Virus record (IMG/VR): IMGVR_UViG_3300006929_004998
Coordinates: 1 to 23,968 of that record
Source: a virus
Length of the DNA stretch: 23,968 nt
Reading direction: 5' to 3' (one strand)
Every line of letters begins with the position of its first letter. Positions within the stretch are counted from its first letter, which is position 1. A program made the position numbers and the translations under genes. Shown in pieces: positions 1-22,524 of the stretch. Under the pieces are notes generated by a model. The model ran no database searches. It was not told where the DNA came from and saw nothing but the letters and a program-made list of their open reading frames with translations.

Positions 1-60
1 CCCCCTCCGAAGGGGGAAAGGAACCCTCCCCTTTGTCCCCACCTGTGGAGGGGAAGGATT
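1..60 (+). repeat. GC-rich hairpin element, in-frame copy 1
   Basis: This is a copy of the composite element seen more fully at 16545-16662: CCGAAGGGGGAAAGGAA followed by a CCCTCCCC/GGAGGGGAAGG unit. It is read in frame as PSEGGKEPSPLSPPVEGK in the large protein. The terminal hairpin CCCCACC-TGT-GGAGGGG has one mismatch. Confidence 0.85.
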
Positions 61-3000
61 TGGTTGATAATGATTTACTGGGTGAGGTTTCGGATAACTT
101 CCGGAAGCTGCCGATTTCGGAGATCAAGACGGATGTGGATCGGTTTCAGAATAGGGACAGGGCTTTTAGTGAGGAAACGGCATCTAGTATTGTTGAGGAT
201 GTGAATGCGGGGGTTTTGAATCCGGATAACATCCCTCCTATCTTGGTTTGGGAGGATCCTACGAATGGCGAGACGTATGTTGTTGGTGGACATAGTAGAA
301 TTGAGGCTTTTAAGCGTTTGAAGTTGCCTTCTATTCCTACTCAAGTATTGAAGGGTATTTCTGAAGAACAGGCTATTGAGCGTGGCCGTACTGATAATGC
401 CTTGGGTACGCAAGAGACGATTACGGAGCAGGCTAATTTGTTGCGGGATGATGTTTTGGCGCTTAGAAAGCAGAATGTAGGGGGTGAGAATGTAGAAGGT
501 AGGAGTTCAGAAGTACCCTCCCCTCAATCCCCACCCGTGGAGGGGAAGGATTTGGTTTCAAAGGCTAGTATTGAGCGGAAGGCGAAGCGGTTGTTTAAGA
601 AGAATTATCGGGATGTGATGGCGTTGGCGGCTTTGAACCCGTCCGGGAAGGCTATACAGACGGTGCAGGCTTTGGAGAAGAATCAGAGTGATGATAAAAC
701 TCGCGTTCAAACGTATGCTAAGTATATTGGTGAGGCACGATTGAAGCACCAGGGTTTAACGGATAGCCATGAAACTGAGTTGTTTGATTATTTAGTGAAG
801 CACGATAATTCTAAGACTAAGAACCAAAAGAGTTTTATTGCTTTTGTGGACGATCTGGTTGGTCGGAATTCTTTTATGGGTGATTTTGATGCTTCAAAGC
901 CTTTGAATGCGAAGGAGGCGAAGCCGAAAACGCCGGAGGAAATTGCGCATGAGGCTATTACTAAGGAGCTTGATAAGGAGGTTAAGGATGCCCGTACTAA
1001 TTTACAGAAGCGTATTAAGGAGATTGAACAGCGAAGATTAGCCGGCGAGACGATTAATGAGGATGCTGCTGAGAAGAGTATTAAGCGGTTTCAGGATCAT
1101 TTGAAGGTTGCTGAACGCCGGTTACTGGAGCATAAGTTGAAGCAGGGTGAGGTTGAACAAACGAAGCGTAGCCAGGGTAGTTTTTTCGGGGATAGGATGC
1201 CGAGGAAGCAGAATGTAGTAGTTAGGAGTTTAGGAGTTCAGAATTCAGAAGAACCCTCCCCTTTGTCCCCTCCCGTGGAGGGGAAGGTGCAGAGTGAGGG
1301 TTTTGGTGGTGAGTTTGAGGGTGGTTCGAATCCGTTGAATGCGGAGCGGAAGTTAGCGGAGGCTAAGCAGATCGAAATTGTGGATGAGTATGGCCGCCAA
1401 CGTGAGATCACATTGGGTGAATTGGAGAATATTACCGGGCTTGAATTGCCGGAGCTGGTTACATTGGTTCGTGAACTTACGGGCGGTACCCCTTCGATTA
1501 GTACTCGTTTTACGAGTACGCGTGGTGTTTTTTACCCGGTTGGTGATGGTAAAATTGCCCTGAAGGCTTCTATTTTTAAGGATACTAAGCTTGCCTCACA
1601 AGTGTTGGCGCATGAGATCGGACATTTGATCGATTACTTACCTGAACAAACAATGAGCCGGGGTAATATTCTTGGTCGTTTATTGACGTTGCGTAAGTAT
1701 TTAAAGACTACCGCGGAGGGTAGCCAAAGCCGTGGCGAAGCACTGACTACTAAGGACCGCGCGAAATTGAGACGTATGGCTGAGAAATCGGTGATCGATG
1801 AATCGGGTATTACGCTTCAGGAGTATATTAATGATAAGGATTTGAAGGCTAGCTTAAGTGATGGTATTAAGGAGCGTTATCAGGAGTATGTGCAGCGAGA
1901 GATTGATAACCGTGGTTTACTGGATAATAAAGCGTTGTTTAATGAATTGTATGCCCACTCGAAAGCGTGGCGGCCGTTTGAGGAATCTGAGGTTGACGAG
2001 GATTTCTTGATGTACCGACGTAGTAGTGCGGAGTTGTATGCGGATGCTTTGAGTGCATTACTGGTTAGCCCCGGTACATTGCAAAAGAATGCCCCTACTT
2101 TTTATACTGAGTTTTTTGAGCAACTTGATAATAAGCCGGAGGTTAAAACGCAGTTTATTGAGCTTCAGGCTTTGCTTACCGGTGGCCGTGAGCGAGTGTT
2201 GCGACTTCGAAATGAGACTATTAACCAAGCTTATTATAAAGCGGAGGATTTGAACCGTGCTTTGATTGAGGAGCGTGAGAATGCGAAGCAGAGTTTTGTG
2301 GATTCTTTTAAGCAGAGTATTGTTAATAAGTACCACCCTATTATTAAGAAGGTTAATGAGGCTAAGTTAGCCGGTGAAACGATCAGGGCTGAAGAAGATC
2401 CTACGTATTTATTGGAGGAACTGGATTATAAGGATAATGTGACTTCAGCTTATTTGTATGATGTTGGTGAACAGGTGGCTAAACCGATCGAAGATGCGGG
2501 AATGACTACGTTGGAGTTGCATAAGTTTTTGCTGTTTAATAGGATTGTGAATGAGGGAAGAAGTGACAAAGGATCAGAGTTACAGAGTGACAGAGTAGAG
2601 AATGTAGAAGGTAGGAGTTCAGGAGTTCAGGATTCAGAAGGTGAGAATGTAGAAGGTAGGAGTTTAGGGGTTGAGGAGTTTTTGAGGGCGAGTGATGAGG
2701 CTTTGGACGCTGAGAAGAAGAAGTACGGACGGGCGTATATGGCGAATCCTGGCGGATTGACTTCGGAGGCTTCGCAGGAGTTGCTGGATAATATGCGGAT
2801 GGAGCTGGGTAGCGAACAGTTTGAATTATTGGAGCAGGCTGCCCGACGGTTCCAGGAGTTGAATTTTGAGTTTGTGGAGCAAGCTGTAGAGGTTGGTGTT
2901 TATAGCCGGGAGATCTTTGAGAAGATTATTGAGCCTAATAAGTATAATTATGCAACTTTTAGAGTGCTGGATTATATACAGTATCCGGATTATGTGACTT

Positions 3001-4865
3001 CGGCTATTCAGGAGAGTTCGGGAACCCTGAAGGATGTGGGATCGACGTTTGATGCTACGCTGTTAAAGACGGTGGCTCTAATACAGACGAACGCTATTAA
3101 CCGCGCGAAGCGTGGAGTGCGGGATACCTGGGCTAATCATTTTAGTGATGAGATAAGTAAGGCTAAATACTTGGGTGATGGCAAGTTTGCTAAGGAACCG
3201 GGTTTGGAACACTTGTTTGTATTGGAGAATGGACAACGGGTTGCTTACAATATTGATCCTTATATAGCGAAAGTGTTTGATTATACGAACCCTAAGATGC
3301 TGAATTGGTTTGTTAAATTGGTGCGGGCTTCGAATGAGAGTGTTTACCGCCCTTTGTTTATTACTTATAACCCGGCTTTTGTGTTTTGGCGTAATCCTAT
3401 TCGTGATTTTAAGCGTTTGTATCGCAACCTTCCGGAGGGTTCTTTGGCACGTGTATTGAAGGGATATATTGATAATTGGCAAACGGCGAAGGCTTATAGT
3501 AAGGGCGAGATCAGTAATCCTAAGATACGCAAGTTGATCGATGATTTTGCTATTACCCCTCCGGGTGAAGGTTTGGTTTTTAAGGACCGAGGCGATGCGC
3601 TGGGTAGACAAATGGAGCGTTTTCATTTAATTGATGGACAAAAGAATTGGGCTCAAAAGCAACTAGAGAAGAATAAAGCGGTACAGGCTATCCCGAAGTT
3701 ATTGGCTAATATCCGCCAGAAAGGTAGTATGCTTGAAATACTGCCTAAGTTAGTGGCTAGTGATGTTTTGGAAGCTGAAGGTGTTTCTAAAGAGCAACGT
3801 AGTTATAGGATACGAAATCATTTTGGTACGCCGAATTTTAAAGCAGGTGGTGCTGATAAGAATTTCACGAACAGCATTTATATGTTCAGTAACATTATGG
3901 TGCAGGGATATAAAGCGGATATTGAAGTGGCGACCTCTCCAAGTACGCGTGGTGCTTTTTGGTTGCGATTTGCGATGTTGGATCTACTGCCAAAGTTATT
4001 GGTTCGCGGTGCATTGCTTGGGTGGATGGGCAAGGAATTACAGGAGTTTTATGACCGTGTTACGGAGTATGATAAAACGAATTATACGGTTATCCCTTTG
4101 GGGTGGAAAGGTGAAGGCACTAATAAAGAGGCTGTATATTTGCGTGTTCCCCAGGATGAGAGCGCTCGCTTGATGAGTTCTGTGATTTGGAAGCTTACCG
4201 GTGTACTAGCTGAGGATAACCGTTCTGATTGGAATGGGGTGTTTGACCTTGGAGCTGATGAATTGCCAGGACCGGCTCCGGCGTTGGTTACTTTATCGAA
4301 ATGGGGGCAGTATCTGAGCGGTAGTAATCCTAAGGATGATTGGCGCGACAGACCGATATTACCTACTCGTATGCATAAAGCGCGGAAGGAGAATCCTGTT
4401 CCGGCTTTGAAGAAGATGGTGCAGTGGTCGGTGAACCAGACGGGTGTTACCAGCTTGGTTACTTATAATGAACATGCTGAGAGTTGGGATGAAGTGATAC
4501 TGCAGACTACGCCGATCCTGAATAGAATGATCAAAAGTACTAATTACGGACTGAAGGAGAAACAGAGCGAAGAACAGAATTTGGAGGATGCTAAAACGAA
4601 TGCCCGGAGATTGGAGTATGGGGATGATGTTTTGCGCATGATCAGCTCTACCTACTATTTACGTAAACTTGGCGATGCCCGTACTACGGACCAAGAGATT
4701 GAGTATGAGTATTATAATAATTTTTACCAACAGGTGTACCGTCCTTATGATGAACTGATTCAGCAGTATATGGAAATGGGTGATGATGAGGCTGCTAAGG
4801 ATGCTATTTCTAGCATGAAGGAGTTTGCCGATGAGTATAAAACCATGATTGAGGAGGCTAATTAA
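3..4865 (+). CDS. Giant phage polyvalent protein (ParB-like + metallopeptidase-like + LPD38-like), 5'-partial
   Basis: The frame is open to the left edge, so the true start is upstream. A TTG at 33 is only the first internal start-like codon; residues here are counted from it. Residues about 27-130 look like a ParB/sulfiredoxin-type domain with the box GGHSRIEAFKRL (85-96). Residues 527-531 are HEIGH, a zinc-peptidase HExxH motif, with SAELYADALS (E667) as a plausible third ligand. The C-terminal half (about 880-1450) resembles the LPD38 region of phage polyvalent proteins, including FGTPNF and IYMFSNIMVQGYKADIE (about 1265-1300). Such proteins are thought to be packaged and injected with phage DNA; that role is inferred here. 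Linkers at about 148-177, 392-419 and 847-881, and the N-terminal edge, are encoded by dispersed DNA repeats. It is the first and largest gene of the late block visible here. Domain names rest on eye-matched motifs. Confidence 0.85.
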   Translation, partial: PSEGGKEPSPLSPPVEGKDLVDNDLLGEVSDNFRKLPISEIKTDVDRFQNRDRAFSEETASSIVEDVNAGVLNPDNIPPILVWEDPTNGETYVVGGHSRIEAFKRLKLPSIPTQVLKGISEEQAIERGRTDNALGTQETITEQANLLRDDVLALRKQNVGGENVEGRSSEVPSPQSPPVEGKDLVSKASIERKAKRLFKKNYRDVMALAALNPSGKAIQTVQALEKNQSDDKTRVQTYAKYIGEARLKHQGLTDSHETELFDYLVKHDNSKTKNQKSFIAFVDDLVGRNSFMGDFDASKPLNAKEAKPKTPEEIAHEAITKELDKEVKDARTNLQKRIKEIEQRRLAGETINEDAAEKSIKRFQDHLKVAERRLLEHKLKQGEVEQTKRSQGSFFGDRMPRKQNVVVRSLGVQNSEEPSPLSPPVEGKVQSEGFGGEFEGGSNPLNAERKLAEAKQIEIVDEYGRQREITLGELENITGLELPELVTLVRELTGGTPSISTRFTSTRGVFYPVGDGKIALKASIFKDTKLASQVLAHEIGHLIDYLPEQTMSRGNILGRLLTLRKYLKTTAEGSQSRGEALTTKDRAKLRRMAEKSVIDESGITLQEYINDKDLKASLSDGIKERYQEYVQREIDNRGLLDNKALFNELYAHSKAWRPFEESEVDEDFLMYRRSSAELYADALSALLVSPGTLQKNAPTFYTEFFEQLDNKPEVKTQFIELQALLTGGRERVLRLRNETINQAYYKAEDLNRALIEERENAKQSFVDSFKQSIVNKYHPIIKKVNEAKLAGETIRAEEDPTYLLEELDYKDNVTSAYLYDVGEQVAKPIEDAGMTTLELHKFLLFNRIVNEGRSDKGSELQSDRVENVEGRSSGVQDSEGENVEGRSLGVEEFLRASDEALDAEKKKYGRAYMANPGGLTSEASQELLDNMRMELGSEQFELLEQAARRFQELNFEFVEQAVEVGVYSREIFEKIIEPNKYNYATFRVLDYIQYPDYVTSAIQESSGTLKDVGSTFDATLLKTVALIQTNAINRAKRGVRDTWANHFSDEISKAKYLGDGKFAKEPGLEHLFVLENGQRVAYNIDPYIAKVFDYTNPKMLNWFVKLVRASNESVYRPLFITYNPAFVFWRNPIRDFKRLYRNLPEGSLARVLKGYIDNWQTAKAYSKGEISNPKIRKLIDDFAITPPGEGLVFKDRGDALGRQMERFHLIDGQKNWAQKQLEKNKAVQAIPKLLANIRQKGSMLEILPKLVASDVLEAEGVSKEQRSYRIRNHFGTPNFKAGGADKNFTNSIYMFSNIMVQGYKADIEVATSPSTRGAFWLRFAMLDLLPKLLVRGALLGWMGKELQEFYDRVTEYDKTNYTVIPLGWKGEGTNKEAVYLRVPQDESARLMSSVIWKLTGVLAEDNRSDWNGVFDLGADELPGPAPALVTLSKWGQYLSGSNPKDDWRDRPILPTRMHKARKENPVPALKKMVQWSVNQTGVTSLVTYNEHAESWDEVILQTTPILNRMIKSTNYGLKEKQSEEQNLEDAKTNARRLEYGDDVLRMISSTYYLRKLGDARTTDQEIEYEYYNNFYQQVYRPYDELIQQYMEMGDDEAAKDAISSMKEFADEYKTMIEEAN
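475..553 (+). repeat. 7-nt-family plus GC-rich element, in-frame copy 2
   Basis: A GAATGTAGAAGGTAGGAG segment is followed by the CCCTCCCC...GGAGGGGAAGG unit. Both are read in the single open frame, giving ENVEGRSSEV then PSPQSPPVEGK. The insertion lies between the ParB-like domain and the following charged region. Confidence 0.85.
1207..1290 (+). repeat. 7-nt-family plus GC-rich element, in-frame copy 3
   Basis: GAATGTAGTAGTTAGGAG-type sequence and GAATTCAGAA are followed by the GC-rich unit ending CCCCTCCCGTGGAGGGG. The peptide is QNVVVRSLGVQNSEE then PSPLSPPVEGK. It lies ahead of the metallopeptidase-like segment. Confidence 0.85.
2572..2670 (+). repeat. 7-nt-family repeat, in-frame copy 4
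   Basis: Two consecutive GAGAATGTAGAAGGTAGGAG units are read as ENVEGRSSGVQDSEG and ENVEGRSLGV. There is no GC-rich hairpin here. The copy sits between the middle region and the LPD38-like part of the large protein. Confidence 0.8.
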
Positions 4866-6867: not shown

Positions 6868-7692
6868 ATGATTGAATTGAATTTTAAGAGTGCTGCTTTT
6901 GTGGCGGCTTTGCTTGTAGTTACTACTTTTTTTGTTACCAGATCGGTGACGGACAGGCCTGTTATTTACGCTCCTGATACGAAGCAGGTGCAGATCGATA
7001 GCCTGACAGTAGCAAAGGATAATGTTATCCGGAGTAAATCGGCGATCATTGATAGCTTGGAATCTGTGACTTTGGGTTTTAAGGATGAACTGGATAAGAA
7101 GAATGAAGTAATTGCCGGATATTCTTCTATAGTGGGGGACTTGAATCTTGCGGTGGATAGTTTGCGGGGGGAGGCGATATCATTAAAAGAGGTTATGGAG
7201 TTACAGAGTTACAGAGTGCAGAGTGAAGAGTATGTAGAAGGTGAGGATATAGGAGTTCAGGATTCAGAAGTTCAGAATTCAGGAGGACCCTCCCCTTTGT
7301 CCCCTCCCGCGGAGGGGAAGGATATCGCATCTGATTTCGCGAATGAAGATGGTACTTTTAAAGTGCCTAAAAATGAAGTTAGTAGGGATACTGTCCTGCG
7401 GAGTGCGGCTTATTTTGGTGATTTTCTGTTGAAAAGTAGCGCGGTGGTTACTTTTGACGGATCTGACCTTTCTTTGCATCCTCCGGATATTTCACAGCTT
7501 CGCCAACCTTCGATTGATGTGGCCGTGCTTTTGAATGAACGAACGAACGGAGTTCGGACTGTTGTGACTTCGAAGGATTTTAGGAATCTGAGGATCGAAA
7601 CTTTTACGGAGATACAACCGAAGCGGAAAAGGTTTCCGTGGTTTTTGATTGGCGTTGGTGCCGGTGTTGTTGGGTGGGAGATTTTGAGGTAG
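6868..7692 (+). CDS. Two-TM coiled-coil phage protein of unknown function
   Basis: A 274-residue protein I cannot assign. It has an N-terminal hydrophobic anchor at about 9-24, a coiled-coil-like charged region at about 38-112, and a repeat-encoded linker at about 112-152 (YVEGEDIGVQDSE, then PSPLSPPAEGK). A folded region follows at about 155-250, then a basic KRKR and a C-terminal hydrophobic segment at about 257-272. N-terminal anchoring plus a coiled coil next to an endolysin is reminiscent of inner-membrane spanins, but the second TM at the very C-terminus is atypical. The ATG at 6868 follows the conserved leader. A 7-nt-family tract follows the TAG stop. Confidence 0.75.
   Translation: MIELNFKSAAFVAALLVVTTFFVTRSVTDRPVIYAPDTKQVQIDSLTVAKDNVIRSKSAIIDSLESVTLGFKDELDKKNEVIAGYSSIVGDLNLAVDSLRGEAISLKEVMELQSYRVQSEEYVEGEDIGVQDSEVQNSGGPSPLSPPAEGKDIASDFANEDGTFKVPKNEVSRDTVLRSAAYFGDFLLKSSAVVTFDGSDLSLHPPDISQLRQPSIDVAVLLNERTNGVRTVVTSKDFRNLRIETFTEIQPKRKRFPWFLIGVGAGVVGWEILR
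7201..7325 (+). repeat. 7-nt-family plus GC-rich element, in-frame copy
   Basis: This copy holds TACAGAGTTACAGAGTGCAG, a GTAGAAGGTGAGGATATAGG segment, GAATTCAGGAGG, and then the unit ending CCCCTCCCGCGGAGGGG. It is read in the same frame as the copies in the giant protein, here giving PSPLSPPAEGK. Confidence 0.85.
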
Positions 7693-11802: not shown

Positions 11803-11940
11803 TTATTGGGTGTTAGGGTGTTATGGTGTTGGGGTGCTATGGTGTTATGGTGTTGGGGTGCTATGGTGTTATGGTGTTAGGGTGTTAGAATGTAGGAGTT
11901 AGGATGTAGGAGTTAGGAGGTAGAATGTAGGAGTTAGAAT
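11803..11940 (+). repeat. 8-nt then 7-nt family tract
   Basis: Octamers GGTGTTAG / GGTGTTAT / GGTGTTGG / GGTGCTAT run to about 11885. GAATGTAGGAGTTAGGATGT-type heptads follow, up to the SSB stop codon, which is itself formed by GTTAG read on the other strand. Confidence 0.9.
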
Positions 11941-12410
11941 GGGAGGTCGTCGTCTATGTTGTCTTGAAAGTTTTTGTCGATTTTGGGGGTTGTGGGTTCT
12001 ACTGTCCTTCGAGCTCCCTTCCCTGCGGGGGAAAGGGGATCGGGTTCGGTGGTGGCCGGATGGGGTACTCCGTTGGTTTTTTTGCTGTCGAGCATGGTCA
12101 TTTGCTTGGCGTTGATTTCGGTGGTGTAGCGTTTGATGCCTGCGTTGTCTTCCCAGCTTCGGGTTTGAATGGGGCCTTCAATGTATACTAATGATCCTTT
12201 TGTTAGATATTGTTGACATATTTCGGCTAACCTGCCCCAGGCTGTTACGCGGTGCCATTCGGTTTTTTCTTGGAGCTCTCCTTCACTGTTTTTGAATTTC
12301 TCGCTGGTTGCTACGCTGAGCGTGGCTACGGCGGTGTTGGATTGCGTGTATCTTACTTCGGGATCTTGCCCGAGACGGCCTATGATTTGTGCTTTGTTTA
12401 GTGAACTCAT
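11934..12410 (-). CDS. ssb: Single-stranded DNA-binding protein (SSB)
   Basis: A 158-residue SSB. Residues 4-108 match the bacterial SSB OB-fold ([54 protein letters not shown]). The C-terminus IDDDLPF is the acidic tip that recruits partner proteins. It coats single-stranded DNA during phage replication and recombination. The disordered linker at about 120-140 contains [15 protein letters not shown], encoded by GC-rich DNA resembling the dispersed hairpin element. The element therefore appears to have been tolerated between OB-fold and tip. An A-rich leader precedes the ATG, and the TAA stop comes from the adjoining 7-nt repeat. Confidence 0.95.
12010..12055 (+). repeat. GC-rich element-like segment in the SSB linker
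   Basis: CGAGCTCCCTTCCCTGCGGG then GGAAAGGGGATCGGG resembles parts of the composite element near 16550-16625 (CCCTGCGGG, GGGGGAAAGG), in the same plus-strand orientation. It is a shorter and more diverged copy. Confidence 0.55.
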
Positions 12411-20559: not shown

Positions 20560-20628
20560 TCCAGGGTGGTTCCTGGTTGTTGGTGCCCCTTGTGAATGTC
20601 CGTGGCGGACTAAGCAAGGGGCTTTTTT
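20560..20628 (+). ncRNA. Candidate small RNA, antisense to the 20610-20984 gene end
   Basis: It starts just downstream of the promoter-like motif and ends at a T6 tract. It contains hairpin 1, CCAGG-GTGGTT-CCTGG (20561-20576), an exposed TTGTTGGT (20577-20584), and a terminator hairpin. TTGTTGGT is complementary to ACCAACAA, the core of the leader motif in front of four genes, so it could regulate them in trans. Its last bases are also antisense to the end of the gene at 20610. Alternative: the hairpin may simply belong to the minus-strand gene end, and the complementarity reflects recurrence of the leader motif. Confidence 0.35.
20585..20628 (+). terminator. Rho-independent terminator, rightward
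   Basis: GCCCCTTG (20585-20592) pairs with CAAGGGGC (20615-20622), with an inner GTCCG-TGG-CGGAC hairpin (20598-20610), followed by TTTTTTATTT. The T-tract is on the plus strand, opposite to the flanking protein genes. Confidence 0.7.
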
Positions 20629-20984
20629 ATTTGAACGCCCATTCTTAAAAAGGCTTGTTTCCATTCGGGTGATATTTTAGCTGCTAATTCTACTTTTAAT
20701 TCTTGAGATTCATACCAATTTTTACCTAAATGTAGTTTTAAGTCAGGAGCCCAATCTATTGAGTATGCATCGTACATATCGTCTTTATTGTCGAATCCTA
20801 ATTGCTGGAATACTGCGGTCATATATTTCTCAAACATAGTTTTTGATAACTCTACTGCCTGAGATTTAAGTGCTTCGGGATCTAGGTCTTTTATCTGTTT
20901 TTCTAAATCCTTAATTGTTTTTTCACTTCTATCAAGTTTGGTTTTTAATGAATTTAAATCGTTTAGTTCAATTTCGACTTTCAT
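20610..20984 (-). CDS. Hypothetical coiled-coil protein, 124 aa
   Basis: Residues about 5-45 (LNDLNSLKTKLDRSEKTIKD...) form a coiled coil. A folded C-terminal part follows (YMTAVFQQLGFDNKDDMYDA, then GKNWYESQELKVELAAKISP). Not recognised. The ATG has the conserved ACCAACAAC leader 28 nt upstream. A terminator at 21013-21048 just before that leader suggests that this gene is expressed from its own promoter. Its last codons (KKPLA, stop) lie inside the inverted stem of the plus-strand terminator. Confidence 0.65.
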   Translation of the reverse strand: MKVEIELNDLNSLKTKLDRSEKTIKDLEKQIKDLDPEALKSQAVELSKTMFEKYMTAVFQQLGFDNKDDMYDAYSIDWAPDLKLHLGKNWYESQELKVELAAKISPEWKQAFLRMGVQIKKPLA

Positions 20985-21012: not shown

Positions 21013-21048
21013 TTAAAAATCCGGAAGGGCTCTATCTCCTTCCGGATT
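21013..21048 (-). terminator. Rho-independent terminator, leftward
   Basis: An 11-bp perfect stem, AATCCGGAAGG (21018-21028) with CCTTCCGGATT (21038-21048) and a 9-nt loop, followed on the minus strand by ATTTTTAAA. It would end transcripts coming from the initiator gene and the structured RNA region. Confidence 0.8.
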
Positions 21049-21171: not shown

Positions 21172-21300
21172 GAATGTAGAAGGTAGGAGTTCAGAAGGCC
21201 CCCTCCCTCAATCCCCGCCCGCAGAGGGAGGAGTTCAGAATTCAGGAGTTTAGAATTCAGAATGACCCTCCCCTTTATCCCCTCCCGAGGAGGGGGAGGA
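21172..21300 (+). repeat. Two tandem composite repeats, intergenic
   Basis: GAATGTAGAAGGTAGGAG and GGCCCCCTCCCTCAATCCCC... are followed by GAATTCAGGAGTTTAG and CCCTCCCC...CCCCTCCCGAGGAGGGGG. The order matches the in-frame copies inside the late genes, in the same plus-strand orientation, although genes here are on the minus strand. Confidence 0.85.
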
Positions 21301-21319
21301 TTGAAGCGCTGTTAATTTG

Positions 21320-21518
21320 TTGAGTGAGGACAGGATTCGATACCTGTATCCCGATTAACCAGCTTACTATCCACAGTCAGCCTTTGCCCGGAGTCATGCA
21401 GTGTGGATCTTTCGGACTGCACCGCCTTACTTTTCGAGTAACTGTATTCAGGTTTCGATCCTGATTTACTCTCCCTATGTACAGAGATACAATTAAACGC
21501 TTCCGCCACCTCACTCAA
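21320..21518 (-). ncRNA. Structured RNA candidate: tRNA-like acceptor/T-arm plus pseudoknot
   Basis: Read on the minus strand. A perfect 10-bp closing stem (TTGAGTGAGG, 21518-21509, with CCTCACTCAA, 21329-21320) abuts directly a T-arm-like hairpin ACAGG-TATCGAAT-CCTGT (21347-21330), as acceptor and T stems do in tRNA. The 5' side continues TGGCGGAAGCGTTTAA, like a class II tRNA D-arm, but its stem does not close well. Inside are hairpin GAGTAA/TTACTC with TCAGG-ATCGAAA-CCTGA (21471-21436) and a possible H-type pseudoknot: TGCAGT (21421-21416)/ACTGCA (21402-21397) crossed by ATCCAC (21408-21403)/GTGGAT (21374-21369). At about 199 nt and without CCA it is no ordinary tRNA. A decayed or intron-containing tRNA is the alternative. 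A 74-codon open frame across it (start 21536) is probably fortuitous. Confidence 0.55.
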
Positions 21519-21533
21519 TTTTGGGAAGGCAGA

Positions 21534-21611
21534 CAATCGTAGTACTTTTGCAAGCTAGGCACCGTGAGATAAATAGCGCTTTTAACGCCAGTGCCTATTC
21601 CACTACAATTG
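21534..21611 (-). ncRNA. Second structured RNA candidate, 78 nt
   Basis: Read on the minus strand: a 10-bp closing stem CAATTGTAGT (21611-21602)/ACTACGATTG (21543-21534) with one U-G pair. Inside is a perfect 7-bp TAGGCAC/GTGCCTA stem (21597-21591 with 21562-21556) enclosing TGGCG-TTAAAAG-CGCTA (21590-21574). A GCTT-GCAA-AAGT hairpin with a GNRA loop adjoins the closing stem. Two wobble pairs would be A-C mismatches on the other strand, so the minus strand is the likely RNA. It has tRNA size but not a tRNA fold. It lies 15 nt upstream of the larger element and may be part of one RNA with it. Confidence 0.5.
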
Positions 21612-21687: not shown

Positions 21688-22524
21688 CTAACTCATAAAT
21701 AGTGGGTGGTACATGTATTGGGTACCTTTTTTTATTGCTTCGAAATTGCTTTCGTCGAATTTTATGCGTCGCTGATCGGCTAGGTTTTGGGCTTCTTTTT
21801 TTGTTAATAGCTTTTGATTAGCGGCCGATTTACTTGTTTTTTTGGATTCAGGATCTCTGTTTAACCATGTTTCTAAATCTTTGTCGGACCGGAGTACCGG
21901 GTCTGTATTGGATTGTTGATTGTTTTCTTTTACCCATGTGGAGTTGGCTCTGTTTAGTATGGCTTTTTTTATTTCTTCTATGGAAAATGTTTTGAGCCGA
22001 GCCCTTACTTGGGGCATTCTTTCTTTGGTGGATTTTAACCGGGTGCCATTGCATTGATTCCAGTATTCCAGTATTTCTTGGGTTTGGGAGTTTAGGGTAT
22101 TGGTTTGAGGTTTGGGTTTTGGAACTTCGGGTTTTGCAATACTTTCGAGCGGGGGTACAGCTGCATCGTTATATATTTGCTGGTTGTATTTTTGGTGGTT
22201 TACCAAACTAATTACATTTACACCTTGTGAGCTGTCTATATATATCATTTCTTCACGCTCTAAGTATTTTAAGAAGTTGTTGACGTTGGAGTTGTTTTTC
22301 CAGCTCCATGCTTTGCGAAGGAATGTGAGTGAGGCTGCTATTTCGCCTTGTTCCCATACGATTAATTTTTTACCTATTATTTTTTTACCCGGATCGGATT
22401 TGTACCTTGCCTGATATAGTATCCAGATCCAAGCTTCTGCTTTGCTGAGTGTTCTTTTTTCTGTCCAGAATTCGTGGCGAAAGAACTTTCTGTATAATTT
22501 GATAAATCCTTCATCATTACTCAT
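21688..22524 (-). CDS. Phage replication initiator (replisome organizer-like)
   Basis: A 278-residue protein. The N-terminus (GFIKLYRKFFRHEFWTEKRT, then SKAEAWIWILYQARY) is typical of phage replisome-organizer/O-like winged-helix domains (about 5-115). After a Pro-rich linker (about 120-145) comes a helical C-terminal domain, EILEYWNQCNGTRLKSTKER to DLETWLNRDP (about 148-225). This resembles the conserved C-terminal domain of phage initiators that contact the helicase. It would bind the phage origin and load the DnaB-type helicase encoded downstream. No iteron array was recognised inside the gene; the structured region just downstream might include the origin. Family assignment is by eye. Confidence 0.8.
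   Translation of the reverse strand: MSNDEGFIKLYRKFFRHEFWTEKRTLSKAEAWIWILYQARYKSDPGKKIIGKKLIVWEQGEIAASLTFLRKAWSWKNNSNVNNFLKYLEREEMIYIDSSQGVNVISLVNHQKYNQQIYNDAAVPPLESIAKPEVPKPKPQTNTLNSQTQEILEYWNQCNGTRLKSTKERMPQVRARLKTFSIEEIKKAILNRANSTWVKENNQQSNTDPVLRSDKDLETWLNRDPESKKTSKSAANQKLLTKKEAQNLADQRRIKFDESNFEAIKKGTQYMYHPLFMS

Follow-up and report, generated by a model that had tools for sequence, protein, structure and literature searches.

We identified in a phage genome an RNA that is very likely a remodelled class II (Leu/Ser/Tyr-type) tRNA. We are similarly confident that this minus-strand RNA has a tRNA-derived fold, a conclusion that rests on three distinct sequences, two of them close, and on no expression data. 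The RNA is an accessory insert common to otherwise unrelated phages. It is unannotated in the Leptospira biflexa phage LE1 and has probably not been described before.

Locus and arrangement of the RNA

The window, meaning the whole stretch of DNA that was analysed (23,968 nucleotides), is the 24-kb virus record IMGVR_UViG_3300006929_004998. Its minus strand carries a tailed-phage replication module, with a DnaD-like loader, a DnaB helicase, an SSB, and methyltransferases. The tRNA-like RNA sits in a 703-nt gap between the end of the loader gene (21688) and the start of the next minus-strand gene (20984), and it reads in the same direction as the flanking replication genes (21518→21320). In the window copy and in all homologues, the RNA strand is that of the neighbouring genes. 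A reading on the plus strand was rejected because it would put the T arm after the 5' acceptor strand, contrary to the order in a tRNA, and because the homologues would lie on the other strand relative to their genes. The original prediction gave no strand, and the order it described (acceptor 5', insertion, T arm, acceptor 3') is that of the minus strand. The features of the locus are listed below.

21688 to 22524, minus strand: upstream gene, DnaD-like helicase loader (phrog_2514, E=3.4e-14)
21320 to 21518, minus strand: whole tRNA-like RNA, 199 nt, or 133 nt without the D-loop insert (R1 match of 123.9 bits, end-to-end alignment; homologue in LE1 and L033/L034)
21509 to 21518, minus strand: acceptor stem 5' strand, 7-bp core AGUGAGG at 21509-21515, 10 bp UUGAGUGAGG in the window copy (stem search; 5/7 pairs change on both sides among homologues)
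21504 to 21508, minus strand: U8, G9 and D-stem 5' strand GCG (the stretch GGUGGCGGAA equals E. coli tRNA-Leu in sequence and register)
21436 to 21501, minus strand: 66-nt D-loop insert, not in LE1 or L033 (alignment A4)
21448 to 21464, minus strand: hairpin UCAGG-AUCGAAA-CCUGA with a T-loop-like cap, inside the D-loop insert (read from the sequence)
21424 to 21426, minus strand: D-stem 3' strand (2/3 pairs form in the window copy, 3/3 in LE1 and L033)
21396 to 21422, minus strand: anticodon-position arm, stem GUGCA(GU)/(AC)UGCAU, with a 17-nt loop (on the 5-bp stem) containing CCGAAAGA (2/5 pairs compensatory)
21403 to 21408, minus strand: pseudoknot (kissing) helix 5' strand AUCCAC, in the anticodon-position loop (3/6 pairs compensatory, in exact register with CUCUC/GAGAG of LE1)
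21369 to 21374, minus strand: pseudoknot (kissing) helix 3' strand GUGGAU, in the variable-arm loop (alignment and covariation)
21350 to 21392, minus strand: enlarged variable arm, with outer stem UCCGG (21388-21392)/UCGGG (21350-21354) and inner stem GGCU (21379-21382)/AGCU (21361-21364)
21330 to 21347, minus strand: T arm ACAGG-UAUCGAAU-CCUGU, 8-nt loop, 7 nt in LE1 and L033 (2/5 pairs compensatory)
21320 to 21329, minus strand: acceptor stem 3' strand, core CCUCACU at 21323-21329, no CCA encoded (stem search and covariation)
21018 to 21048, minus strand: 11-bp perfect palindrome followed by TTTTT, probably a terminator, which separates the RNA from the next gene at 20984-20610 (repeat search; T run read from the sequence)
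20610 to 20984, minus strand: downstream gene, 124 aa, no family (ORF list and protein family scans)

The sole minus-strand frame overlapping the RNA (74 aa, 21312-21536) cannot be shared with the homologues, since a 1-nt indel distinguishes LE1 from L033 inside the most conserved stretch. We found no sigma-70-like promoter of the RNA's own on the minus strand.

All the helices named in the original prediction exist, at or inside the places it had assigned to them. The outer 10-bp perfect stem corresponds to 21320-21329/21509-21518, the TGCAGT/ACTGCA helix falls inside 21416-21422/21396-21402, and the ATCCAC/GTGGAT helix is formed by 21403-21408/21369-21374. The T-arm-like hairpin is at 21330-21347 and the nested hairpin at 21448-21464. 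The terminal stem is unusual, as a 10-bp inverted repeat with arms at least 100 nt apart arose in only 6 of 2000 dinucleotide shuffles. Two crossing 6-bp helices are by themselves unremarkable (183/2000 shuffles) and the folding energy of the RNA is only mildly low (z -1.8), so the structure remains unsettled from sequence alone. What lifts the RNA above chance is comparison, through the blastn match to LE1 and the 12 two-sided compensatory pairs over three distinct sequences.

Several other elements were observed in the window. A 13-nt inverted repeat (85%; 21304-21316/21569-21581, 252 nt apart) brackets the whole RNA locus and could form an outer stem or delimit a small mobile unit. Palindromic repeats rich in C (CCCTCCC...GGGAGG with GAATTCAG units) occur throughout the phage, at 33-4865 (+), 6868-7692 (+), and 11934-12410 (-) and in the intergenic region 21200-21300. 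Those inside genes are translated as extra peptides, for example LSPPVEGK and ENVEGRS. Judging by their sequence, they look like dispersed small repeats that insert in frame. The plus-strand gene at 33-4865 encodes a 1610-aa protein with a ParB-like N-terminal stretch; among annotated proteins, those of Salisaeta icosahedral phage 1 and a Pelagibacter phage are its closest relatives.

Homologues in Leptospira phages

A blastn search of phage records (2.3 Gb) returned a single relative of the RNA, in LE1 (81% over 67 nt, E=1e-4), where the copy occupies an unannotated gap between gp16 and gp17. Capsid-protein relatives of LE1 led to two LE1-like prophages, L033 and L034, whose element is 84% identical to that of LE1 and matches the window element at E=1.5e-10 (blastn within a small set). 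A protein comparison of LE1 with the window phage found no shared protein above noise. The most conserved part of the RNA is the variable-arm core, in which 38 of 48 bases are identical between the window and LE1 (79%). Identity in the acceptor is 7/14, and the base at position 73 is A in LE1 and L033 and a paired C in the window copy.

In LE1 and L033/L034, the RNA lies between gp16 and gp17, which are 200-300 nt apart there. Homologues of both genes are present in six LE1 relatives (L035-L038 and the plasmids L039/L040) without a match to the model, and in L036-L038 and L040 they are nearly adjacent, representing an empty site. Phages related to the window through DnaB (L004-L009) also had no element according to R1, a covariance model made from the phage RNAs alone, with no tRNA included. 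Six pattern scans of viral contigs and one of genome contigs returned only LE1-type members and chance matches. A search with R1 of 1292 genomes from several phyla, and of the Leptospira plasmids W01-W03, gave no member beyond the LE1 type, with Spirochaetota genomes not among the draws, and weak Bacteroidota matches were at chance level. One candidate at 20.9 bits (L096) was rejected as a member, being coding sequence. These broad scans needed near-exact core motifs or stricter filters, and divergent members could have been missed.

The flanks of the LE1 copy hold further features. On the 3' side (L030 20218-20291), the distance from the RNA to gp17 in LE1 exceeds that in L033 by about 100-105 nt, and LE1 has an inverted repeat there, GGTAGTT...AACTACC. 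The extra stretch is likely a second insertion at the same place, although this is inferred only from the sequence itself. On the 5' side (L030 20009-20087), a CCTAAATC/GATTTAGG hairpin and an AGGAAC/GTTCCT pairing are kept in L033, around a variable hairpin, and it is possible that the transcript carries a 5' domain formed by this flank. The variable hairpin is capped by a T-loop in LE1 only. Its absence from L033 led us to reject it as a homologue of the T-loop hairpin in the window, which itself is not conserved at the corresponding place in LE1 and L033.

Fold and probable class II tRNA origin

The LE1-type members are plain cloverleaves, with a 7-bp acceptor, a 3-bp D stem, a 5-bp anticodon-position stem, a long variable arm, and a 5-bp T arm, and for L033 the cloverleaf is the unconstrained lowest-energy fold. 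The acceptor is CGCAAGG/CCUUGUG in LE1, CACAAGA/UCUUGUG in L033, and AGUGAGG/CCUCACU in the window; in the LE1 type it directly precedes UGGCGGAA. An ACAAG sequence upstream in LE1, considered as an acceptor strand, was replaced by CGCAAGG, which adjoins the D arm and covaries. We aligned LE1, L033, and the window copy (A4) by fitting them to the structure of the model, which does not include the pseudoknot, and 96.8% of cells pair on this model-guided alignment. Two-sided compensatory changes occur at 12 of 31 base pairs among the three sequences, five in the acceptor, two in the anticodon-position stem, three in the pseudoknot, and two in the T arm. None of 500 shuffles reached 12, and slid structures gave 0 or 1 such pair.

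The pseudoknot occupies identical columns in all members (AUCCAC/GUGGAU in the window, CUCUC/GAGAG in the others). Since it joins the 16-17-nt loop of the anticodon-position arm to the loop of the inner hairpin in the variable arm, it amounts to an intramolecular kissing contact. The window copy deviates in having one broken D-stem pair, an 8-nt T loop, and a 10-bp acceptor without a free 3' end or CCA.

Relationship to genuine tRNAs was examined by running R1, unfiltered, over the tRNA loci of E. coli and T4. Three E. coli tRNA-Leu(CAG) genes scored 24.0-24.3 bits and aligned arm to arm and end to end; end-to-end matches were also obtained for tRNA-Leu(UAA) (20.0 bits), two tRNA-Tyr genes (16.9-17.4 bits), and T4 tRNA-Ser (23.0 bits). 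Class I tRNAs (Lys, Cys, Val, Arg, and Gly) reached no more than 10.3 bits, the maximum being Lys, and T4 tRNA-Leu scored 9.6 bits. LE1 and E. coli leuV agree at 19 of 24 bases over tRNA positions 4-27, in exact tRNA register. The R1 matches and this identity in register therefore indicate that the RNA is either a descendant of a class II tRNA or a close mimic of one. Two tests of class II identity are thus passed, homology with genuine tRNA-Leu genes and possession of the class II cloverleaf, the latter except for the broken D pair in the window.

The retained tRNA parts are the acceptor stem, U8, the 3-bp D stem, the anticodon-position stem, the long variable arm, and the T arm. The RNA lacks a 7-nt anticodon loop with a readable anticodon: the loop is expanded from 7 to 16-17 nt, and the 3' half of it is base-paired with the enlarged loop of the variable arm; for this reason the RNA cannot decode like a tRNA. 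The G18 G19 pair of the D loop is absent (LE1 AAAAUACAGA versus leuV AAUUGGUAGA). CCA is not encoded and could be added after transcription.

These losses could suggest a decayed phage tRNA-Leu gene that is now functionless, with G18 G19 lost, no CCA, an altered anticodon loop, and a 66-nt D-loop insert in the window. We consider this very unlikely. The 12 two-sided compensatory changes and a column-perfect, non-tRNA pseudoknot in two unrelated phage lineages point instead to selection on the altered form. Also very unlikely is a working tRNA after intron removal, or a tmRNA, for which the class II tRNA body is the supporting evidence. ARAGORN at default thresholds found no tRNA, intron-bearing tRNA, or tmRNA in these sequences, and the intron-bearing calls printed at lowered thresholds have arms that do not match the covarying fold. 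Moreover, the anticodon loop has gained only about 9-10 nt, this added part is itself paired, and there is neither a tag frame nor a tmRNA-like 5' sequence.

The claims of the original prediction held: the element is tRNA-like, has a real pseudoknot, and lies in a gene-free region; it is also absent from Rfam. Covariance-model searches, which it proposed as a check, gave no standard model match, with only chance matches to Rfam models including the group I intron and other families. In its second check, compensatory change, the stems covary, including 3/6 pairs of the pseudoknot it named. A conserved protein read through the region would have refuted it, and none is present. Its assignments are in part revised. 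TGCAGT/ACTGCA is the anticodon-position stem, and ATCCAC/GTGGAT is the loop-loop contact of the enlarged anticodon loop with the enlarged variable arm. Within the insertion of about 140 nt that it described, 66 nt (21436-21501) are an extra D-loop insert peculiar to the window copy. Its likeness to tmRNA gives way to a class II tRNA body, and the RNA is tRNA-derived, which goes beyond the earlier wording of tRNA-like.

Possible roles and comparison with known systems

The same RNA in unrelated Leptospira phages has likely been kept for a purpose other than ordinary decoding. In the mechanism we propose, the RNA would be transcribed together with the surrounding minus-strand genes, an inference made without expression data, and the transcript may be trimmed like a tRNA precursor, possibly by RNase P/Z. 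It would then act in trans as a tRNA mimic, binding a host tRNA-handling protein without being translated. Our best guess is that, in phage-host conflict, it would engage defence enzymes that cut tRNAs, as a competitor or a decoy: the anticodon loop and the variable loop, where such enzymes are known to cut, are here locked in one helix. The decoy role is argued by analogy, with no tRNA-cutting defence target tested, and we lean slightly against it. The explanation as a whole (a remodelled class II tRNA, accessory, acting in trans as a tRNA mimic) is likewise the best available but falls a little short of even confidence.

An alternative, suggested by conservation that peaks in the variable-arm core (79%) and not in the elbow or acceptor of the tRNA, is that the tRNA body may merely serve as a scaffold. 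The core, with its conserved stretches CCGAAAGA, CAUGACUCCG, AAGGCUGACUG, GUAAGCUG, and UAAUCGGGAU, could then be a new binding or catalytic site, making the RNA a riboregulator, a protein-binding RNA, or a ribozyme. In favour of this possibility, the core is conserved across unrelated phages and the acceptor is not, and the differing acceptor identity bases and position 73 speak against a shared aminoacylation role. Against it, there is no known ribozyme or aptamer motif and no Rfam match, and the tRNA arms still covary. Conservation of the core fits a dedicated binding or catalytic site as well as it fits tRNA mimicry, and both remain live rivals, with a processing signal as the third.

As a processing signal, the acceptor and T-arm half would form a minimal substrate for RNase P or RNase Z, at which a polycistronic phage transcript is cleaved, with the remainder keeping it folded. 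This is possible, given that the RNA lies between co-directional genes in both phages and that the acceptor and T arm both covary. However, such a signal needs no conserved anticodon-loop/variable-arm core, yet this is the most conserved part. The distance to the next gene also varies, being about 100 nt greater in LE1 than in L033, and a terminator-like palindrome separates the window RNA from the next gene.

Returning to the tRNA mimic, a bolder reading, which we offer tentatively and rate somewhat below even odds, is that the RNA represents a new class of non-decoding tRNA-derived RNA. A cis "codon" on the variable arm would occupy the anticodon loop, and the RNA would pass between unrelated phages as an RNA gene in its own right, either putting a tRNA-directed system of the host out of action or supplying a catalytic or regulatory core that is new and built on a tRNA scaffold. 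If true, a tRNA gene has been turned into a non-decoding RNA with an anticodon-loop/variable-arm contact that is backed by covariation and absent from the families searched. This would have a direct bearing on why tRNAs and tRNA-like RNAs are carried by phages, which is still an open question, and on the defences that cleave tRNAs, which are known to cut in the two loops that the phage RNA ties to each other. As LE1 is a cultured model phage of L. biflexa, the RNA is directly testable.

Among known RNAs, the phage RNA resembles bacterial tRNA-Leu (also Ser and Tyr) in its five arms, the lengths of the acceptor, D, and T stems, U8, the D-loop length (in LE1), and the sequence of its 5' part in register. 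Unlike class II tRNAs, it has a paired anticodon loop of 16-17 nt and a variable arm of about 45 nt with an inner hairpin, and it lacks G18 G19, CCA, and a usable anticodon. It shares with tmRNA the tRNA-like ends and a pseudoknotted insertion. tmRNA differs in lacking an anticodon stem and a class II variable arm, in carrying a tag frame, and in its length of 300+ nt. Membership is not met, given the negative ARAGORN tmRNA search, no Rfam match, no tag frame, and no tmRNA-like 5' sequence.

YrlA and other bacterial Y RNAs are likewise non-coding RNAs with a tRNA-like domain, and a role as a nuclease competitor has been proposed for that of YrlA (PMC7790460). Membership in this group is not met either, with no Rfam match and no Ro60/Rsr-type gene among the scanned proteins, which did not include every ORF of either phage. 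T4 rnaC (species 1) is another stable phage RNA with a perfect 3'-end T arm and gave the second-best R1 match in the T4 tRNA region (L188 1409-1547; 12.2 bits). This match rests on the acceptor and T arm, and the two RNAs have no core in common. Finally, phage anti-defence tRNAs such as the tRNA-Tyr of T5/T6 are decoding tRNAs, unlike the phage RNA, which cannot decode. They resemble it in being phage-borne and class II with a special variable loop, and they have been proposed to act as a decoy or supplement against defence (PMC13096335, PMC11555353).
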